In this document: one piece after another, positions 16,181-23,317 of the stretch
Layout of the letters: every line of letters starts with the position of its first letter
How positions within the stretch are numbered: position 1 is the stretch's first letter
Virus record (IMG/VR): IMGVR_UViG_3300049027_000050
Location: 1-23,331 of that record
Origin: a virus
DNA length: 23,331 bases
Reading direction: 5' to 3' (one strand)
Notes under the pieces: generated by a model
Database searches by the model: none
The model's input: only the letters and a program-made list of their open reading frames with translations
Told to the model about the DNA's origin: nothing
Position numbers and translations under genes: made by a program

Positions 16181-16402
16181 TTAGGGCGGAGTCAACTCGC
16201 GCAATCGCTCGGCGAGAAGATCGAGCAACAGGGCGCGCTCCTGAGTCAGCCGGAGTAGATCGACGTATAGACCTTCCGGGACACCAGCCCCGGCAACCCA
16301 ACGGCGCATGGTGCGATCGGAGACGGCGAGGTCGCGCGCGAGTGCCGATTGCCACAGGGGACCATAGAGAGCCTCTCCGCACTCGACCAGCAGCCGGCTC
16401 AT
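16181..16402 (-). CDS. Small helix-turn-helix regulator, Aca-like position (73 aa)
   Basis: The product is 73 residues, nearly all helix, with a helix-turn-helix at about 17-38 (WQSALARDLAVSDRTMRRWVAG) and a C-terminal Leu-rich helix (LTQERALLLDLLAERLREL) suited to dimerisation. It is the last gene of a leftward three-gene operon, its ATG overlapping the previous stop. Similar small proteins are found in Pseudomonas and Burkholderia prophages. Size, fold and place fit an anti-CRISPR-associated (Aca) repressor that binds a palindrome in its own operon promoter. I cannot assign it to a named Aca family. Confidence 0.75.
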   Translation of the reverse strand: MSRLLVECGEALYGPLWQSALARDLAVSDRTMRRWVAGAGVPEGLYVDLLRLTQERALLLDLLAERLRELTPP

Positions 16403-16662
16403 TGGAGCGGCATCAAGCGCACGATTGGGCATCCGTTGCGATCCTTCCCGATCTCGCTGCGGCACTCTACGACGCGCCCACTGCGCAGCTCGGATGCGAT
16501 GAACGTGCGGTCTTCGTACGGCGTGTTCGCCTCGCCATCGAGGCGGCGCACCCGCGCCAAAACCGCGCCGCCGCGCTTGTTGATTGTTTCGGCCTGCCAC
16601 CCGGCAGTCGCCAGGGTCGCGGCGAAATTGTCGCGGCTGATCTTGTTGATGGTCTTGGTCAT
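16399..16662 (-). CDS. Unknown small protein, second gene of the leftward operon (87 aa)
   Basis: The ATG at 16662 is chosen because GAGGA lies 7 bases upstream; a GTG at 16686, overlapping the previous gene, would add eight residues. The sequence is mixed alpha/beta: MTKTINKISRDNFAATLATA, then INKRGGAVLARVRRLDG and TFIASELRSGRVVECRSEIG. No family is recognised. Its size and its place before a helix-turn-helix gene are typical of anti-CRISPR candidates, but nothing in the sequence proves that. Confidence 0.65.
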   Translation of the reverse strand: MTKTINKISRDNFAATLATAGWQAETINKRGGAVLARVRRLDGEANTPYEDRTFIASELRSGRVVECRSEIGKDRNGCPIVRLMPLQ

Positions 16663-16682
16663 AATGCGGTCCTCATGCCAAA

Positions 16683-16904
16683 TCACAGGCGTTGCTCGAG
16701 CACGCGCTCGCCGGTTTCGGTGTCGATCACGACGAGCATCGGACCGTAGCCCTTATATCCCCAGGCCGGGAACGCCGCGCGCGCATAGGCGGCCGCTTTT
16801 CTGCGCGCACCTTCGACGGTGCCGCGATGCTCGAAAGTCACGCCGCTTTGCTGCGCGGAATAGGCGCTGTAGCGGAGATTGCGGGGGGTGGTGATCTTGG
16901 ACAT
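16683..16904 (-). CDS. Unknown small protein, first gene of the leftward operon (73 aa)
   Basis: The start has an excellent ribosome binding site (CAGGAGGCCAC before the ATG). The protein is basic at first (MSKITTPRNLRYSAYSAQQS) with a central helix (VEGARRKAAAYARAAFPAWG) and a C-terminal strand pair (GPMLVVIDTETGERVLEQRL). No family is recognised. It is the promoter-proximal gene under the consensus promoter at 16956-16984 and so should be the most strongly expressed of the three. Confidence 0.65.
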   Translation of the reverse strand: MSKITTPRNLRYSAYSAQQSGVTFEHRGTVEGARRKAAAYARAAFPAWGYKGYGPMLVVIDTETGERVLEQRL

Positions 16905-16947
16905 GTGGCCTCCTGTGCCAGCTGCGGCGGGCCTGATTGCCCTGCCG

Positions 16948-16984
16948 ATGTCCTAAATATAGGACATGTAATAGGGCCTGTCAA
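16948..16984 (-). promoter_or_regulatory. Strong sigma-70 promoter with overlapping palindromic operator
   Basis: On the minus strand: TTGACA (16984-16979), a 17-bp spacer, and TATATT (16961-16956), close to the full sigma-70 consensus. The -10 box lies inside a perfect inverted repeat, ATGTCCTA-aata-TAGGACAT (16948-16967). A protein bound there would block polymerase. GGACATGT, part of the repeat, occurs again over the start codon of the first gene (16899-16906). The likely binder is the helix-turn-helix protein ending the operon. Confidence 0.85.
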
Positions 16985-17561: not shown

Positions 17562-17636
17562 TGCGGTGTGGAGCAGTAGAAGCTCGTTGGGCCCATAACC
17601 CAAAGGTCGGACGTGCAATTCGTCCCGCCGCAACCA
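17562..17636 (+). tRNA. Initiator-type tRNA-Met (CAU), unusual loops
   Basis: A 75-base cloverleaf with encoded ACCA: acceptor TGCGGTG/CGCCGCA (17562-17568, 17626-17632), D stem GAGC/GCTC, anticodon stem TTGGG/CCCAA with loop CCCATAA (anticodon CAU, 17594-17596), variable AGGTC, T stem GGACG/CGTCC. All stems pair; only one pair, T-G in the acceptor, is a wobble. Initiator hallmarks are present: three G-C pairs closing the anticodon stem and A11-U24 in the D stem, and it resembles E. coli tRNA-fMet. Odd points are U1-A72 instead of the C1xA72 mismatch, C33 instead of U33, a seven-base D loop (AGTAGAA) without the GG pair, and T loop TGCAATT with G55. These could make tRNA finders miss it. It may work as a phage initiator or as a decoy. 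Confidence 0.85.
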
Positions 17637-19181: not shown

Positions 19182-20858
19182 GTGGACTGGACGACCGCCT
19201 GCCCGGACTGGGAGCCCCGGATTGTGGCGCGTGAGTCCCTGATCGCTTGCCAGCCGCTTTTCCCCGATGTGGCGGCCGAGGCCTGGGAGCGTTGCAGCAA
19301 CTTTCGGCTGATGGATGTCACCGGCCAGCCCCTGCTGGGTGAAGCGGCTTTGCCCTGGCTGCGCGACTTCGTCATGGTGGTGTTCGGCGCCGAAGACCCG
19401 GAAACCGGCCGGCGTCATATAAACGAGTTCCTGCTGATGGTCAGCAAGAAGAACGCGAAGAGTACGATCGCTGCGGCCATCATGCTCACAGCGTTGCTGA
19501 TGAACTGGCGCCAGTCGGCCGAGCTTTTGATCTTGAGCCCGACCAAGGAAATCGCGGACAACAGCTACAAGCCGATCCGGGACTTCATCAGGGCCGACGG
19601 GGAACTGCAACAGATCCTGAAGGTGCAGGACTATTTCCGCACCATCACCCATATCCAGACCGGCGCGACCCTCAAGGTGGTGGCGGCCGACAGCGACACG
19701 GTCAGCGGCAAGAAGGCCAGTTTCGTCTTTGTGGACGAGCTGCATGAATTCGGCAAGCAGGCCAAGGCCAGCAACATGCTGCTGGAGGCCACCGGCGGGC
19801 TGACATCGCGGCCCGAGGGATTCGTGATCTACGCGACGACCCAGTCGGCTGAACCGCCGGCCGGGGTGTTCAAGACCAAATTGGCCTATGCCCGCAAGGT
19901 GCGCGATGGGCTGATCCAGGACCGCAAGTTCCTGCCGCTGATCTACGAATTCCCCGAGGCCATGGTCAAGTCCAAGGCTTACGAGGATCTGGCGAACGCC
20001 TACGTGACGAACCCGAACTGGGGCGCGTCGGTGGACATCGAGCGCATCACCCAGCTACGCAGCCAGGCGAAGGAAGAGGGCGAAAACGAGTTCAAGGAGT
20101 TCCTCGCCAAGCACCTAAACATCGAGATCGGCCTAAATCTGCGGTCGGATCGGTGGGCCGGCGCCGACTTCTGGTCGTCATCCGAAGTCGTCCTGACCTT
20201 CGACGAGCTGCTGCGCCGTTGCGAGGTCGCGGTGGTTGGCGGAGATGGCGGCGGGCTGGATGACTTGCTCGGGCAAGCTGTCGTCGGGCGCGAGCGGGGA
20301 ACCGGCAAGTGGCTCGCGTGGTTCCATGCCTGGGCGCACAAGATCGCACTCGAACGGCGCAAGGAAATTGCTCCGCGGCTGCTGGATTTCCAGCGCGAAG
20401 GCAGCCTCACTATCGTTGACCGTCCGGGCCAGGACGTCCAGGAGTTCGTGGACAACGTGTGCCGCGTGCGAGACGCCGGCCTGCTGCCAGAGGCAAGCGG
20501 GATCGGGGTGGACGCGGCCGGCATCGGCGACATCGTGGACGAATTGGCTGCGCGCGACTTCAATGTGGACCCCGGCGGCGACGTGGTTGCCGTTAGCCAA
20601 GGGTGGCGCCTGAACGGGGCGATCAAGACCACAGAGAGAAAGCTTGCCGGCGGTGAGCTGCTTGTCGCGGCATCGACGCTCATGCCTTGGTGCGTGGGTA
20701 ATGCCAGGATCGAGGACAAGGGTAACGCCATCTCCATCACGAAGCAGGCCAGCGGCAAGGCAAAGATCGACCCGCTCATGGCCCTGTTCGATGCCGTCTC
20801 GCTGATGGCCCTGAACCCTGTCGGCAGGGCGGGCCTCTCATTCTGGGAAACCGCCTGA
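19182..20858 (+). CDS. terL: Terminase large subunit (Terminase_1 family)
   Basis: This 558-residue packaging motor has a Walker A-like VSKKNAKST (87-95), Walker B FVFVDE (181-186) and coupling motif YATTQS (217-222). The C-terminal nuclease domain carries acidic residues in VVGGDGGG (D355), GIGVDAAG (D444) and KIDPLMALFDA (D530). It drives DNA into the prohead and cuts it at the packaging site. The start is GTG, 2 bases after the small subunit. The stop shares one base with the next ATG. Length and motif order are normal for HK97-type phages. Confidence 0.95.
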   Translation: MDWTTACPDWEPRIVARESLIACQPLFPDVAAEAWERCSNFRLMDVTGQPLLGEAALPWLRDFVMVVFGAEDPETGRRHINEFLLMVSKKNAKSTIAAAIMLTALLMNWRQSAELLILSPTKEIADNSYKPIRDFIRADGELQQILKVQDYFRTITHIQTGATLKVVAADSDTVSGKKASFVFVDELHEFGKQAKASNMLLEATGGLTSRPEGFVIYATTQSAEPPAGVFKTKLAYARKVRDGLIQDRKFLPLIYEFPEAMVKSKAYEDLANAYVTNPNWGASVDIERITQLRSQAKEEGENEFKEFLAKHLNIEIGLNLRSDRWAGADFWSSSEVVLTFDELLRRCEVAVVGGDGGGLDDLLGQAVVGRERGTGKWLAWFHAWAHKIALERRKEIAPRLLDFQREGSLTIVDRPGQDVQEFVDNVCRVRDAGLLPEASGIGVDAAGIGDIVDELAARDFNVDPGGDVVAVSQGWRLNGAIKTTERKLAGGELLVAASTLMPWCVGNARIEDKGNAISITKQASGKAKIDPLMALFDAVSLMALNPVGRAGLSFWETA

Positions 20859-21073
20859 TGAAACACACACTGCAGATGATTGCAGCGCGGGCGGCCAAAG
20901 GGCTGCAACGAATCGCGGCGTTCGGCGTGGCATGGAGGCCTGATGCCTTGATGGCGGCCGGCGCCGGGGCGCTGTCGTACGGGGCAAGCCTGATCTATCC
21001 GCCGGCCGGCTGGCTGGTGGCGGGCGCGCTGGCGCTAACTGCGGGCGTGCTGGCGGCGCGGAAAGCCGCCTGA
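20858..21073 (+). CDS. Small membrane protein between terminase and portal (71 aa)
   Basis: After a basic amphipathic N-terminus (MKHTLQMIAARAAKGLQRIA) there are two hydrophobic helices (LMAAGAGALSYGASLIY and GWLVAGALALTAGVLAA). Small genes occur at this place in several HK97-type phages without known function. It shares a base with both neighbours' start or stop. A holin role is possible in shape, but no lysis enzyme is near. Confidence 0.65.
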   Translation: MKHTLQMIAARAAKGLQRIAAFGVAWRPDALMAAGAGALSYGASLIYPPAGWLVAGALALTAGVLAARKAA

Positions 21074-22431
21074 TGGGATTTCTCTCGTCCATCGTCGCGC
21101 CGGCGTCGCAACGCATGAATGTCGCATTCCAGGAAGGCGTCTGGCCGGAGTTGTTCGCCAAGTCGAAGGCCGGCCCCGCTGTGACGCTCGACGCCGCCCT
21201 CAAGGTATCCGCAGCGTTCGCCTGCATGCGCGAGATCTCGCAGGGACTGGCACAGGTGCCGTTCAAGCTGATGCAGGACTTCGAGAAAGACGGACTGCGG
21301 CGCAAGAGGGTCGCGCGCGACCACCAGGTGCACGAGCTCATCTCCGCGAGGCCGAACGACTGGCAAACGTCATTCGAATTCATGGAAACCCTCGGCCTGC
21401 ATGCAACCTTGGGCAACGCCTACGTTTACAAAGTGATGGTGCGCGGAGCGCCCCGCGAGCTGATCATCCTGGACCCGTGCCGGGTGACGGCGGAGCTGTC
21501 CGATCGGTACGAGCCTGTGTACCTGGTAACAGGCCGTGATGGCAAGCAAGAGACCCTGGACCGCTCGCGTATTTGGCACGTGCGCGGCGCCTCGTGGGAT
21601 GGCTTCCTCGGCCTGGAAACTCTGAAGCTGGCGCGCGAGGCGCTGGGGCTATCGATCGCACTGGAGGACAGCGTCTCTAGTCTGCACGCGAACGGTGTGC
21701 GTCCGACTGGTGTCTATTCGGTCGATTCGACGCTGGATAAAAAACAGTACGAGCAGCTCACGGACTGGCTGAAGAAGCAGGCTGCGGCGGGAGCCGGGAC
21801 GCCTCTGGTGCTGGACCGCGGAGCGAAGTGGCTGCAGCAGACCATGACCAGCGTGGACGCGCAGCACCGGGAGATGCGGCAGCATCAGATCGAGGATGTC
21901 TGCCGCTTCTTCGGCGTGCTTCCGACTATTGTGGGCTATACCGGCGATAAAGCAAACACGTACGCCAGCGCGGAAGTAATGGAGAACGCGCACAAGGTCC
22001 GCACGATGGGCCGGTGGTTCAAGCGCATCCAGGATTCGGCCGACATCAACCTGCTGACCGACGCCGAGCGCCGCGAAGGCGGCTACTACACGAAGTTCAC
22101 GACCAACGCGCTGATGGCCGCATCGGCGGCTGACCGCGGCGAGTTCTACGCTAAGGCCTTGGGCTCAGGCGGCTCGCCCGCGTTCATGACGCAGGACGAG
22201 ATCCGAGCGCTCGAGGATCTTGACCCGATGGGGGGTGAGGCCGCAAAGCTGCCGCCCCGCGCAGGCGCCGAATCTTCGGATCAACCAAGCGACGACAACC
22301 AACCTGCCGACCAGCGCCGGCAACGCCTGAACGTCGGCCGCGTCCTGTCTTCGCGCAATGAACGCCGCATCCGAGACGCCGACGGCCTGCTGAACGACGT
22401 GCTTGCCGAACTCGACGAGCCACAGGAGTAA
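21073..22431 (+). CDS. Portal protein (HK97 family)
   Basis: This 452-residue protein matches the HK97-type portal: VTLDAALKVSAAFACMREISQGLAQVPFKL near the N-terminus, then QTSFEFMETLGLHATLGNAY, IWHVRGASWDGFLGLETLKLAREALGL and DVCRFFGVLPTIVGYTGDKANTYAS. The portal ring is the DNA entry vertex of the head and docks terminase. The variable C-terminus (after about residue 390) is Pro/Asp/Gln-rich and helical. It follows the small membrane protein and precedes the protease, the standard order. Confidence 0.95.
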   Translation: MGFLSSIVAPASQRMNVAFQEGVWPELFAKSKAGPAVTLDAALKVSAAFACMREISQGLAQVPFKLMQDFEKDGLRRKRVARDHQVHELISARPNDWQTSFEFMETLGLHATLGNAYVYKVMVRGAPRELIILDPCRVTAELSDRYEPVYLVTGRDGKQETLDRSRIWHVRGASWDGFLGLETLKLAREALGLSIALEDSVSSLHANGVRPTGVYSVDSTLDKKQYEQLTDWLKKQAAAGAGTPLVLDRGAKWLQQTMTSVDAQHREMRQHQIEDVCRFFGVLPTIVGYTGDKANTYASAEVMENAHKVRTMGRWFKRIQDSADINLLTDAERREGGYYTKFTTNALMAASAADRGEFYAKALGSGGSPAFMTQDEIRALEDLDPMGGEAAKLPPRAGAESSDQPSDDNQPADQRRQRLNVGRVLSSRNERRIRDADGLLNDVLAELDEPQE

Positions 22432-22435
22432 GACC

Positions 22436-23317
22436 ATGAAGAAGATTCTTGACCTCGCCGTGATGCGAGGCGCGATGAACCGTTGCCCAGCGTCGGCCGT
22501 CGGCCCGGGTGTCGTTCGTGTCAATGCGGCCGAAGGCGCCGACGAAGCCGAGGTCTTCATCTACGGCGACATCGGCGGCTGGCTCGGTGGCGTCAGCGCA
22601 GAGGAGTTTGCCAAGGAAATCGCGGCCCTCGATGTGAAGACCATGAATGTTCGCCTGAACAGCCCCGGCGGCCTCGTGTTCGAAGGCGTCGCGATCTACA
22701 ACGCGCTGGCCCGTCACTCGGCCCATGTGGTGGTGCACGTCGAAGGCATCGCCGCGAGCATCGCCTCTGTGATCGCGATGGCCGGCGACGAGGTCCGCAT
22801 CGCCGAGGGTTCGCGCTTCATGGTCCATGACCCATGGACATTCGCCATGGGAAACGCGGCGGACCTGCGCGCCGAGGCTGATGTTCTGCAGGGCTTGAAG
22901 TCCGACCTGATCGACATCTACAGCGCGCGGACCGAGCAGTCGCGCGGCGACCTGTCCGACTGGATGACGGCGGAGACCTGGCTCAGCGCCCGGGACGCCG
23001 TCGAAAATGGATTCGCCGACAGCATGACGCCGGCCAAAAAGAAGGAAAAGAAGGACGCGCACGCGCGCTCAGCGGTGATCAAGCTGTTCCGAAATGCGCC
23101 CCAAGACCTTGTTGTCGCTGGCGACGAGGCTCCCCCAATTCGAGAGTTCGAAGCCTTTCTTCGCGACGGAGAAGGACTTTCACAGACCCAGGCCAAGCGC
23201 ATCGCCGCCGCGGCCCGGGCCATCACCGTGCAACGTGACGATGCACGGGCAACGCCCCAACGAGACGATGGGGCATCGCAGCGGCTTGCCGCGCACATCC
23301 GCGCGATGACCGCCTAG
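22436..23317 (+). CDS. ClpP-like prohead maturation protease
   Basis: The 293-residue protein has an S14 (ClpP-type) domain at about 38-200: LNSPGG (75-80), the nucleophile segment GIAASIAS (likely S108), MVHDPW (likely catalytic H131) and ETWLSARDAVENGFADSM. It cleaves the capsid/scaffold precursor during head maturation. The C-terminal part (about 205-293) is charged and helical, perhaps a scaffold-like or targeting region. Start at 22436 follows ACAGGAGTAAG. The major capsid gene is expected next, outside the window. Confidence 0.9.
   Translation: MKKILDLAVMRGAMNRCPASAVGPGVVRVNAAEGADEAEVFIYGDIGGWLGGVSAEEFAKEIAALDVKTMNVRLNSPGGLVFEGVAIYNALARHSAHVVVHVEGIAASIASVIAMAGDEVRIAEGSRFMVHDPWTFAMGNAADLRAEADVLQGLKSDLIDIYSARTEQSRGDLSDWMTAETWLSARDAVENGFADSMTPAKKKEKKDAHARSAVIKLFRNAPQDLVVAGDEAPPIREFEAFLRDGEGLSQTQAKRIAAAARAITVQRDDARATPQRDDGASQRLAAHIRAMTA

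Follow-up and report, generated by a model that had tools for sequence, protein, structure and literature searches.

A conserved two-hairpin leader RNA and exchangeable cargo in a probable Aca-like counter-defence cassette of a tailed phage

By the account of Birkholz et al. from 2024, Aca2, which is encoded in the acrIF8-aca2 operon of Pectobacterium phage ZF40, is reportedly an RNA- and DNA-binding regulator. Operons of the acr-aca type are recognised by a small helix-turn-helix (HTH) gene that stands last, after small unrelated genes, by an inverted repeat within the core promoter, and by linkage of a homologue of a known anti-CRISPR (Acr) protein to the HTH gene. In Aca2, R30 is a key DNA-binding residue (PMC8434428), and the Aca10 promoter carries a palindrome, the operator AATACGCTCATTGAGCGTATT (PMC9410881). 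In archaeal viruses, many small anti-defence genes that are unrelated to one another can be recognised by a regulatory sequence conserved among them (PMC11065993).

The window, by which we mean the whole 23.3-kb stretch of DNA analysed, is an IMG/VR virus record that represents a tailed phage by its gene content (Table 1). A leftward operon at 16984-16181 (-) comprises P0001, P0002 and then the HTH protein P0003, and all three open reading frames are present as the first-pass annotation had described them. The operon lies on the strand opposite to its recognisable neighbours, as had also been proposed, and is situated upstream of + strand genes for HNH, terminase, portal and protease proteins. 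The start codon of P0003 overlaps the stop codon of P0002 by 4 nt. In an analysis of GC content by codon position, P0001 (GC3 0.78) and P0002 (GC3 0.83) are typical of the genes of this phage, and P0003 and the antisense open reading frames are less typical of phage genes; coding of P0001 and P0002 is thus favoured over the antisense frames. The operator, the leader and the HTH gene are conserved in about 60 other loci, indicating that the operon is more than a chance arrangement. In our judgement, the operon probably serves this tailed phage as an Aca-like counter-defence cassette that represses itself and whose cargo is exchangeable. Elsewhere in the window, a tRNA-Met (CAT) gene lies at 17562-17636 (+), between the operon and the terminase region, and the segment 8112-11360 (+) contains genes for an RNA ligase and a DNA methyltransferase as well as one whose product has a match to PHROG 200 'lipoprotein'; the ligase and the methyltransferase may have a counter-defence role too.

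Table 1. Features of the operon and tailed-phage genes of the window
Feature	Position	Strand	Basis
-35 element TTGACA	16979..16984	-	consensus scan
-10 element TATATT, 17-nt spacer	16956..16961	-	consensus scan
Operator palindrome ATGTCCTA-N4-TAGGACAT, perfect inverted repeat, over the -10 element	16948..16967		inverted-repeat search
Leader hairpin 1, CGGC-A(bulge)-GGGC-AAUCAG-GCCC-GCCG	16925..16947	-	fold + covariation
Leader hairpin 2, UGGC-ACAGGAG-GCCA, Shine-Dalgarno in loop	16906..16920	-	fold + covariation
P0001, cargo protein 1, 73 aa, orphan	16683..16904	-	ORF + homology searches
P0002, cargo protein 2, 87 aa, orphan	16399..16662	-	ORF + homology searches
P0003, Aca-like helix-turn-helix protein, 73 aa	16181..16402	-	ORF, profile, predicted fold
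Terminase	19182-20858	+	tailed-phage gene
Portal	21073-22431	+	tailed-phage gene
Head protease	22403-23317	+	tailed-phage gene

The near-consensus promoter and the perfect palindrome that overlaps it were likewise recovered, the former (TTGACA-17-TATATT) matching 11 of 12 consensus positions. Across the 2-kb region, a consensus scan detected no second site resembling a promoter (0.4 expected). Most related cassettes carry TTGAC or TTGC at equal spacing, and their commonest spacer is 17. The 18-bp core of the palindrome, TGTCC-N8-GGACA, is present as a single copy in the window even at 3 mismatches (0.19 expected), and the core with at most 2 mismatches is found in 58 of 60 cassettes versus 27 of 1200 control windows. 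As in acr-aca operons, this inverted repeat is located within the core promoter. In six cassettes (L107, L096, L046, L148, L110 and L146), the palindrome is positioned 9-11 bp further upstream, approximately one helical turn; since the N8 spacing is kept despite this shift, the sequences point to selection on the palindrome itself, beyond the -10 element.

Viral contigs contain 30 close relatives of P0003, and a profile search raises the number of relatives to at least 111. Upstream of these relatives lies a block of DNA that is constant although the genes in between differ, and that runs in the order promoter, palindrome, AGGGCAATCAGGCCCG, then TGGCnnAGGAGGCCA and a start codon. About 60 other sequences, mostly viral, carry both constant ends around different small genes. 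Specifically, a P0003-type HTH gene lies downstream of 55 of the 60 leaders identified with a covariance model, with one (34 cassettes), two (16), three (4) or no (1) genes in between. The window and these 55 of 60 cassettes therefore share the acr-aca layout, in which a small HTH gene comes last, after small unrelated genes. The linkage also holds in reverse: operator-bearing leaders identified from the DNA pattern alone are followed by the HTH gene wherever the contig reaches far enough. Leader-pattern matches that lack the operator (L045, L048, L050, L060-L064 and L066) were discarded as chance. A 4-nt overlap between the cargo stop codon and the HTH start codon is seen in 32 of 54 cassettes and suggests translational coupling of the HTH gene to the cargo.

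Two related loci depart from the common arrangement. In an alphaproteobacterial assembly (Neomegalonema; L049:677-1108, -), the HTH protein has diverged and is fused to an extra C-terminal domain (143 aa), and the leader is kept. In L157, two leaders (113-183, -, and 262-326, +) point apart with about 80 bp between them, as if two cassettes were divergently arranged, and the rightward cassette contains a DUF4942-like protein. In bacterial genomes, the leader model matched one, already known, of 399 genomes of one order, under strict filters that may lose weak matches. A search for the HTH protein yielded two strong matches in 301 host-family genomes, whereas the family to which genome G003 belongs, sampled with 248 genomes, had no match. 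Because the leader and the HTH gene are scarce in the surveyed host genomes, the cassette looks phage-borne.

The constant block further comprises a conserved two-hairpin mRNA leader, a feature beyond what the first-pass annotation described. The leader of the window is predicted to form two hairpins (fold z -2.7) and scores 83.1 bits against the covariance model, which was built from 26 leaders and finds leaders in most of 80 loci, many of them outside its training set. For 59 distinct leaders, in an alignment that was fitted to the model and hence leans towards the structure, the paired positions contain 94 double-sided changes versus 29.1 in shuffles (0 of 500 shuffles) and have a covariation score of 0.356 versus 0.100 in shuffles, and the double-sided changes drop to 7-16 when the partners are slid along the alignment. 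The unfitted first MAFFT alignment agrees, with 20 double-sided changes versus 5.4 (0 of 500 shuffles). Hairpin 1 has the best support from covariation; for hairpin 2, covariation is seen at the outer pair, with inner pairs that are mostly constant. A search of 4227 Rfam models gave no match to the leader at E up to 1, and by this comparison the two-hairpin leader RNA, which falls in no Rfam family, appears to be previously undescribed.

By analogy with what is reported for Aca2, the leader suggests that a second layer of control operates on the RNA. The hairpins could instead act alone, by affecting the stability of the mRNA or the access of ribosomes, or through a host factor, with the HTH protein regulating through DNA only; this reading bears on the RNA step alone and can be combined with an Aca-like cassette. 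A stable 5'-terminal hairpin can protect mRNA, and the ribosome site lies in the loop of hairpin 2 and not in its stem, which could favour access. However, hairpin 1 shows conservation that goes further than its pairing, in the AAUCAG loop and the bulge (mostly A), as a protein site would; the ZF40 leader, whose repressor has been published as RNA-binding, folds in a similar layout; and hairpin-like elements recur before internal genes in two sister cassettes. Weighing these points, we regard action of the hairpins alone as a real possibility, at somewhat less than an even chance. The internal elements (L156:750-1480 and L087:2456-2516) resemble the leader hairpins, being GGGC-loop-GCCC and a GGC...GCC hairpin that encloses a ribosome site, and they precede internal operon genes where no promoter is seen; they fit RNA-level control of single genes.

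Between leader and HTH gene, the cassettes encode 81 cargo proteins, which fall into 65 sequence clusters (55 of them single) and have a median length of 79 aa. At the level of sequence, the comparison establishes that cargo has been swapped between phages while the cassette ends remain constant, as is expected if the cargo inhibits host defences that vary. Family searches with 68 representatives identified few well-described families: one DUF4942 protein, one GP88 protein and one hexapeptide transferase, examples of cargo that is neither small nor Acr-like. Further matches were to PHROG DNA methyltransferases and to PADLOC mad2, and the DUF4942 protein also matches DNA methyltransferases. When three cargo proteins were searched by tblastn in phage records, only one family was matched, in a Desulfovibrio phage. 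A recurrent cargo family with the motif KYRIT...MPN..GW occurs also in other phage operons without this leader. In L173, L174 and L176 (about 1420-1850), a KYRIT/MPN gene stands just upstream of a different small XRE-like HTH gene with a different promoter, possibly another Aca-like family. In L171 and L172 (about 1380-1500), the promoter palindrome CTCAATTTGAG and two predicted hairpins precede a KYRIT-type gene and may represent a second leader family of like design. At acr loci, genes are typically exchanged from one regulator to another (PMC9765179).

One cargo protein is related to a known anti-CRISPR. L107 has a single cargo protein, which matches PHROG 8786 'type I-E anti-CRISPR protein' (E 1.4e-4, residues 1-52) and solved AcrIE3 (E 1.2e-3, 52 residues, ungapped), modest E-values for a single case among 68 cargo proteins. 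With 68 queries, a chance match of this strength to any family would be unlikely, and one to an anti-CRISPR family far more so. The linkage of a known Acr homologue to the HTH gene that characterises acr-aca operons is accordingly found in the sister cassette L107 and not in the window. The cargo of L135, which had been suspected to be AcrIF11-like, had no solved-structure match, and this reading was rejected.

The same cargo could belong to a general 'moron' cassette, a self-regulated promoter-leader-HTH unit that carries assorted accessory genes for host takeover, metabolism or superinfection exclusion and is not specifically anti-defence. Most cargo is without known function, and the hexapeptide transferase, the GP88 protein and the methyltransferase-matching DUF4942 protein would suit such a unit; the small size and extreme diversity of the cargo, the Aca2-related HTH gene downstream and the AcrIE3 homologue nevertheless fit acr loci better. 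DNA methyltransferases, moreover, can act against restriction. We consider a general accessory cassette unlikely. The constant promoter-operator-leader and HTH gene around hypervariable small cargo strongly support the acr/aca-like architecture put forward in the first-pass annotation, with further support from the remote homology of the HTH protein to Aca2 and from the AcrIE3 homologue as sole cargo in L107. That reading appears right in kind, and is partly supported: the cassette is of an Aca-like type, and among its sister copies one contains a relative of an anti-CRISPR.

P0001 and P0002 had been called unrecognised, and homologue searches returned no match to any family. Specifically, neither has a homologue in viral contigs, phage records, Pfam, PHROGs, NCBIfam or PADLOC, and 301 host-family bacterial genomes gave chance-level pieces only, several with internal stops; by these searches, both are orphans without convincing homologues in the collections covered. 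A single-sequence model of P0001 is beta-beta-alpha-beta-beta (pLDDT 71), and its top fold matches, which lie below trust level and serve as a lead only, are two T4-like phage Dmd antitoxins (Z 6.0 and 5.7) and AcrIF9 (Z 5.7). The best DALI match of AcrIF9 is itself Dmd (PMC7714069), and the three proteins may share a common simple fold. The model is suggestive but weak as an indication that P0001 is a counter-defence binder. No homologue links P0001 or P0002 directly to defence, and their anti-defence role is putative.

P0003 itself is, by its profile matches, remotely homologous to Aca2. The best solved-structure (PDB) matches of its family profiles are to Aca2 (E 1.3e-4 and 2.8e-4), followed closely in score by the HigA2 antitoxin. 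In hhalign comparisons with HTH regulators of ZF40, the value is 91.5% for Aca2, 55% for the CI repressor and 5% for the Cro-like protein. The AlphaFold2 model of P0003 (pLDDT 96) resembles AcrIF25 (Z 7.9), Aca2 (Z 7.2; 70 residues, 2.2 A), Aca10 (Z 7.1), HigA2 (Z 6.9), Aca7 (Z 6.6) and Aca1 (Z 6.2), Z-scores that by themselves prove only a common fold. In particular, R30 of P0003 is aligned with R30 of Aca2 in the homologous HTH domain and is invariant in 36 relatives. Of the named families Aca1-Aca12 and the 36 AcaFinder families (PMC9765179), the comparison covered Aca1, Aca2, Aca7 and Aca10, through their solved structures. Homology to Aca2 extends over the HTH domain, for which Aca2 is the best solved-structure match, and not to the C-terminal dimerisation domain: P0003 ends at residue 73, and the alignment spans Aca2 residues 1-73. 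Because this domain is absent, P0003 is not filed as Aca2. The alternative of a toxin-antitoxin module (HigBA, YdaST), in which P0003 would be a HigA/YdaS-like antitoxin or regulator and the toxin would be P0001 or P0002, had been left open by the first-pass annotation and is rejected as very improbable. HigA2 is among the closest solved structures, and YdaS is matched weakly (E 0.0064, under the Pfam cut-off), but family searches found no toxin family in P0001, P0002 or other cargo, and the partners of the HTH gene vary, unlike constant toxin-antitoxin pairs.

We propose the following mechanism for an Aca-like, self-repressed cassette. At infection, the strong promoter would yield a burst of the two cargo proteins, and the HTH protein would be made last, from the same mRNA. 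An HTH dimer on TGTCC-N8-GGACA over the -10 element would then shut the promoter, a model of repression that reporter tests have established for Aca families (PMC9410906); from the operator and the HTH domain, we infer such autorepression by P0003. Judged from the position of the -10 element, the transcript should begin at or just before hairpin 1, and hairpin 2 would present the ribosome-binding site in its loop. P0003 could bind hairpin 1 or hairpin 2 and damp translation, as reported for Aca2; damping by the leader fold alone is less likely than damping by P0003. The full proposal, in which a widespread phage cassette uses an HTH protein of about 70 residues to control its exchangeable counter-defence cargo at two levels, on DNA and on the leader RNA, and cargo enters by recombination between leader and HTH gene, is tentative, and we place it just short of an even chance.

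Two elements are new: a structured leader that is conserved, and the extent to which cargo is exchanged while the ends stay constant. As a bait for new phage counter-defence genes, the cassette is well suited, as its leader can be searched by sequence and structure independently of recognising the cargo; this bait already yields the 81 cargo proteins, nearly all without assigned function, from environmental phages. If the HTH protein binds the leader, control at both DNA and RNA would not be peculiar to Aca2 but rather a more general design of counter-defence operons, and P0003 would offer a minimal protein for working out how a single helix-turn-helix recognises DNA as well as RNA.

Among described systems, the acrIF8-aca2 operon of ZF40 is similar in that an HTH protein related in sequence and fold is encoded last in a leftward operon, a palindrome lies over the promoter, and the leader folds in two hairpins beside the ribosome site. 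It differs in the sequences of operator and hairpins and in its regulator, Aca2 having 116 aa with the C-terminal domain that the 73-aa P0003 lacks; RNA binding by P0003 is a proposal. P0003 shares a small HTH fold with Aca10, Aca7, Aca1 and AcrIF25. Aca10 also resembles it in having a promoter palindrome, whereas the operator differs, and a sequence search of P0003 against Aca10 gave no significant match (E 0.37). AcrIE3 aligns without gaps with the L107 cargo but is absent from the window, and P0001 and P0002 are unrelated to it. The HigA2 antitoxin has an HTH of similar sequence and fold, whereas the HTH gene here has no toxin partner and accompanies cargo that is variable, not constant. 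The anti-defence genes of archaeal viruses were identified through a shared early promoter, whereas the cassettes described here combine their promoter with a structured leader and a linked HTH gene.
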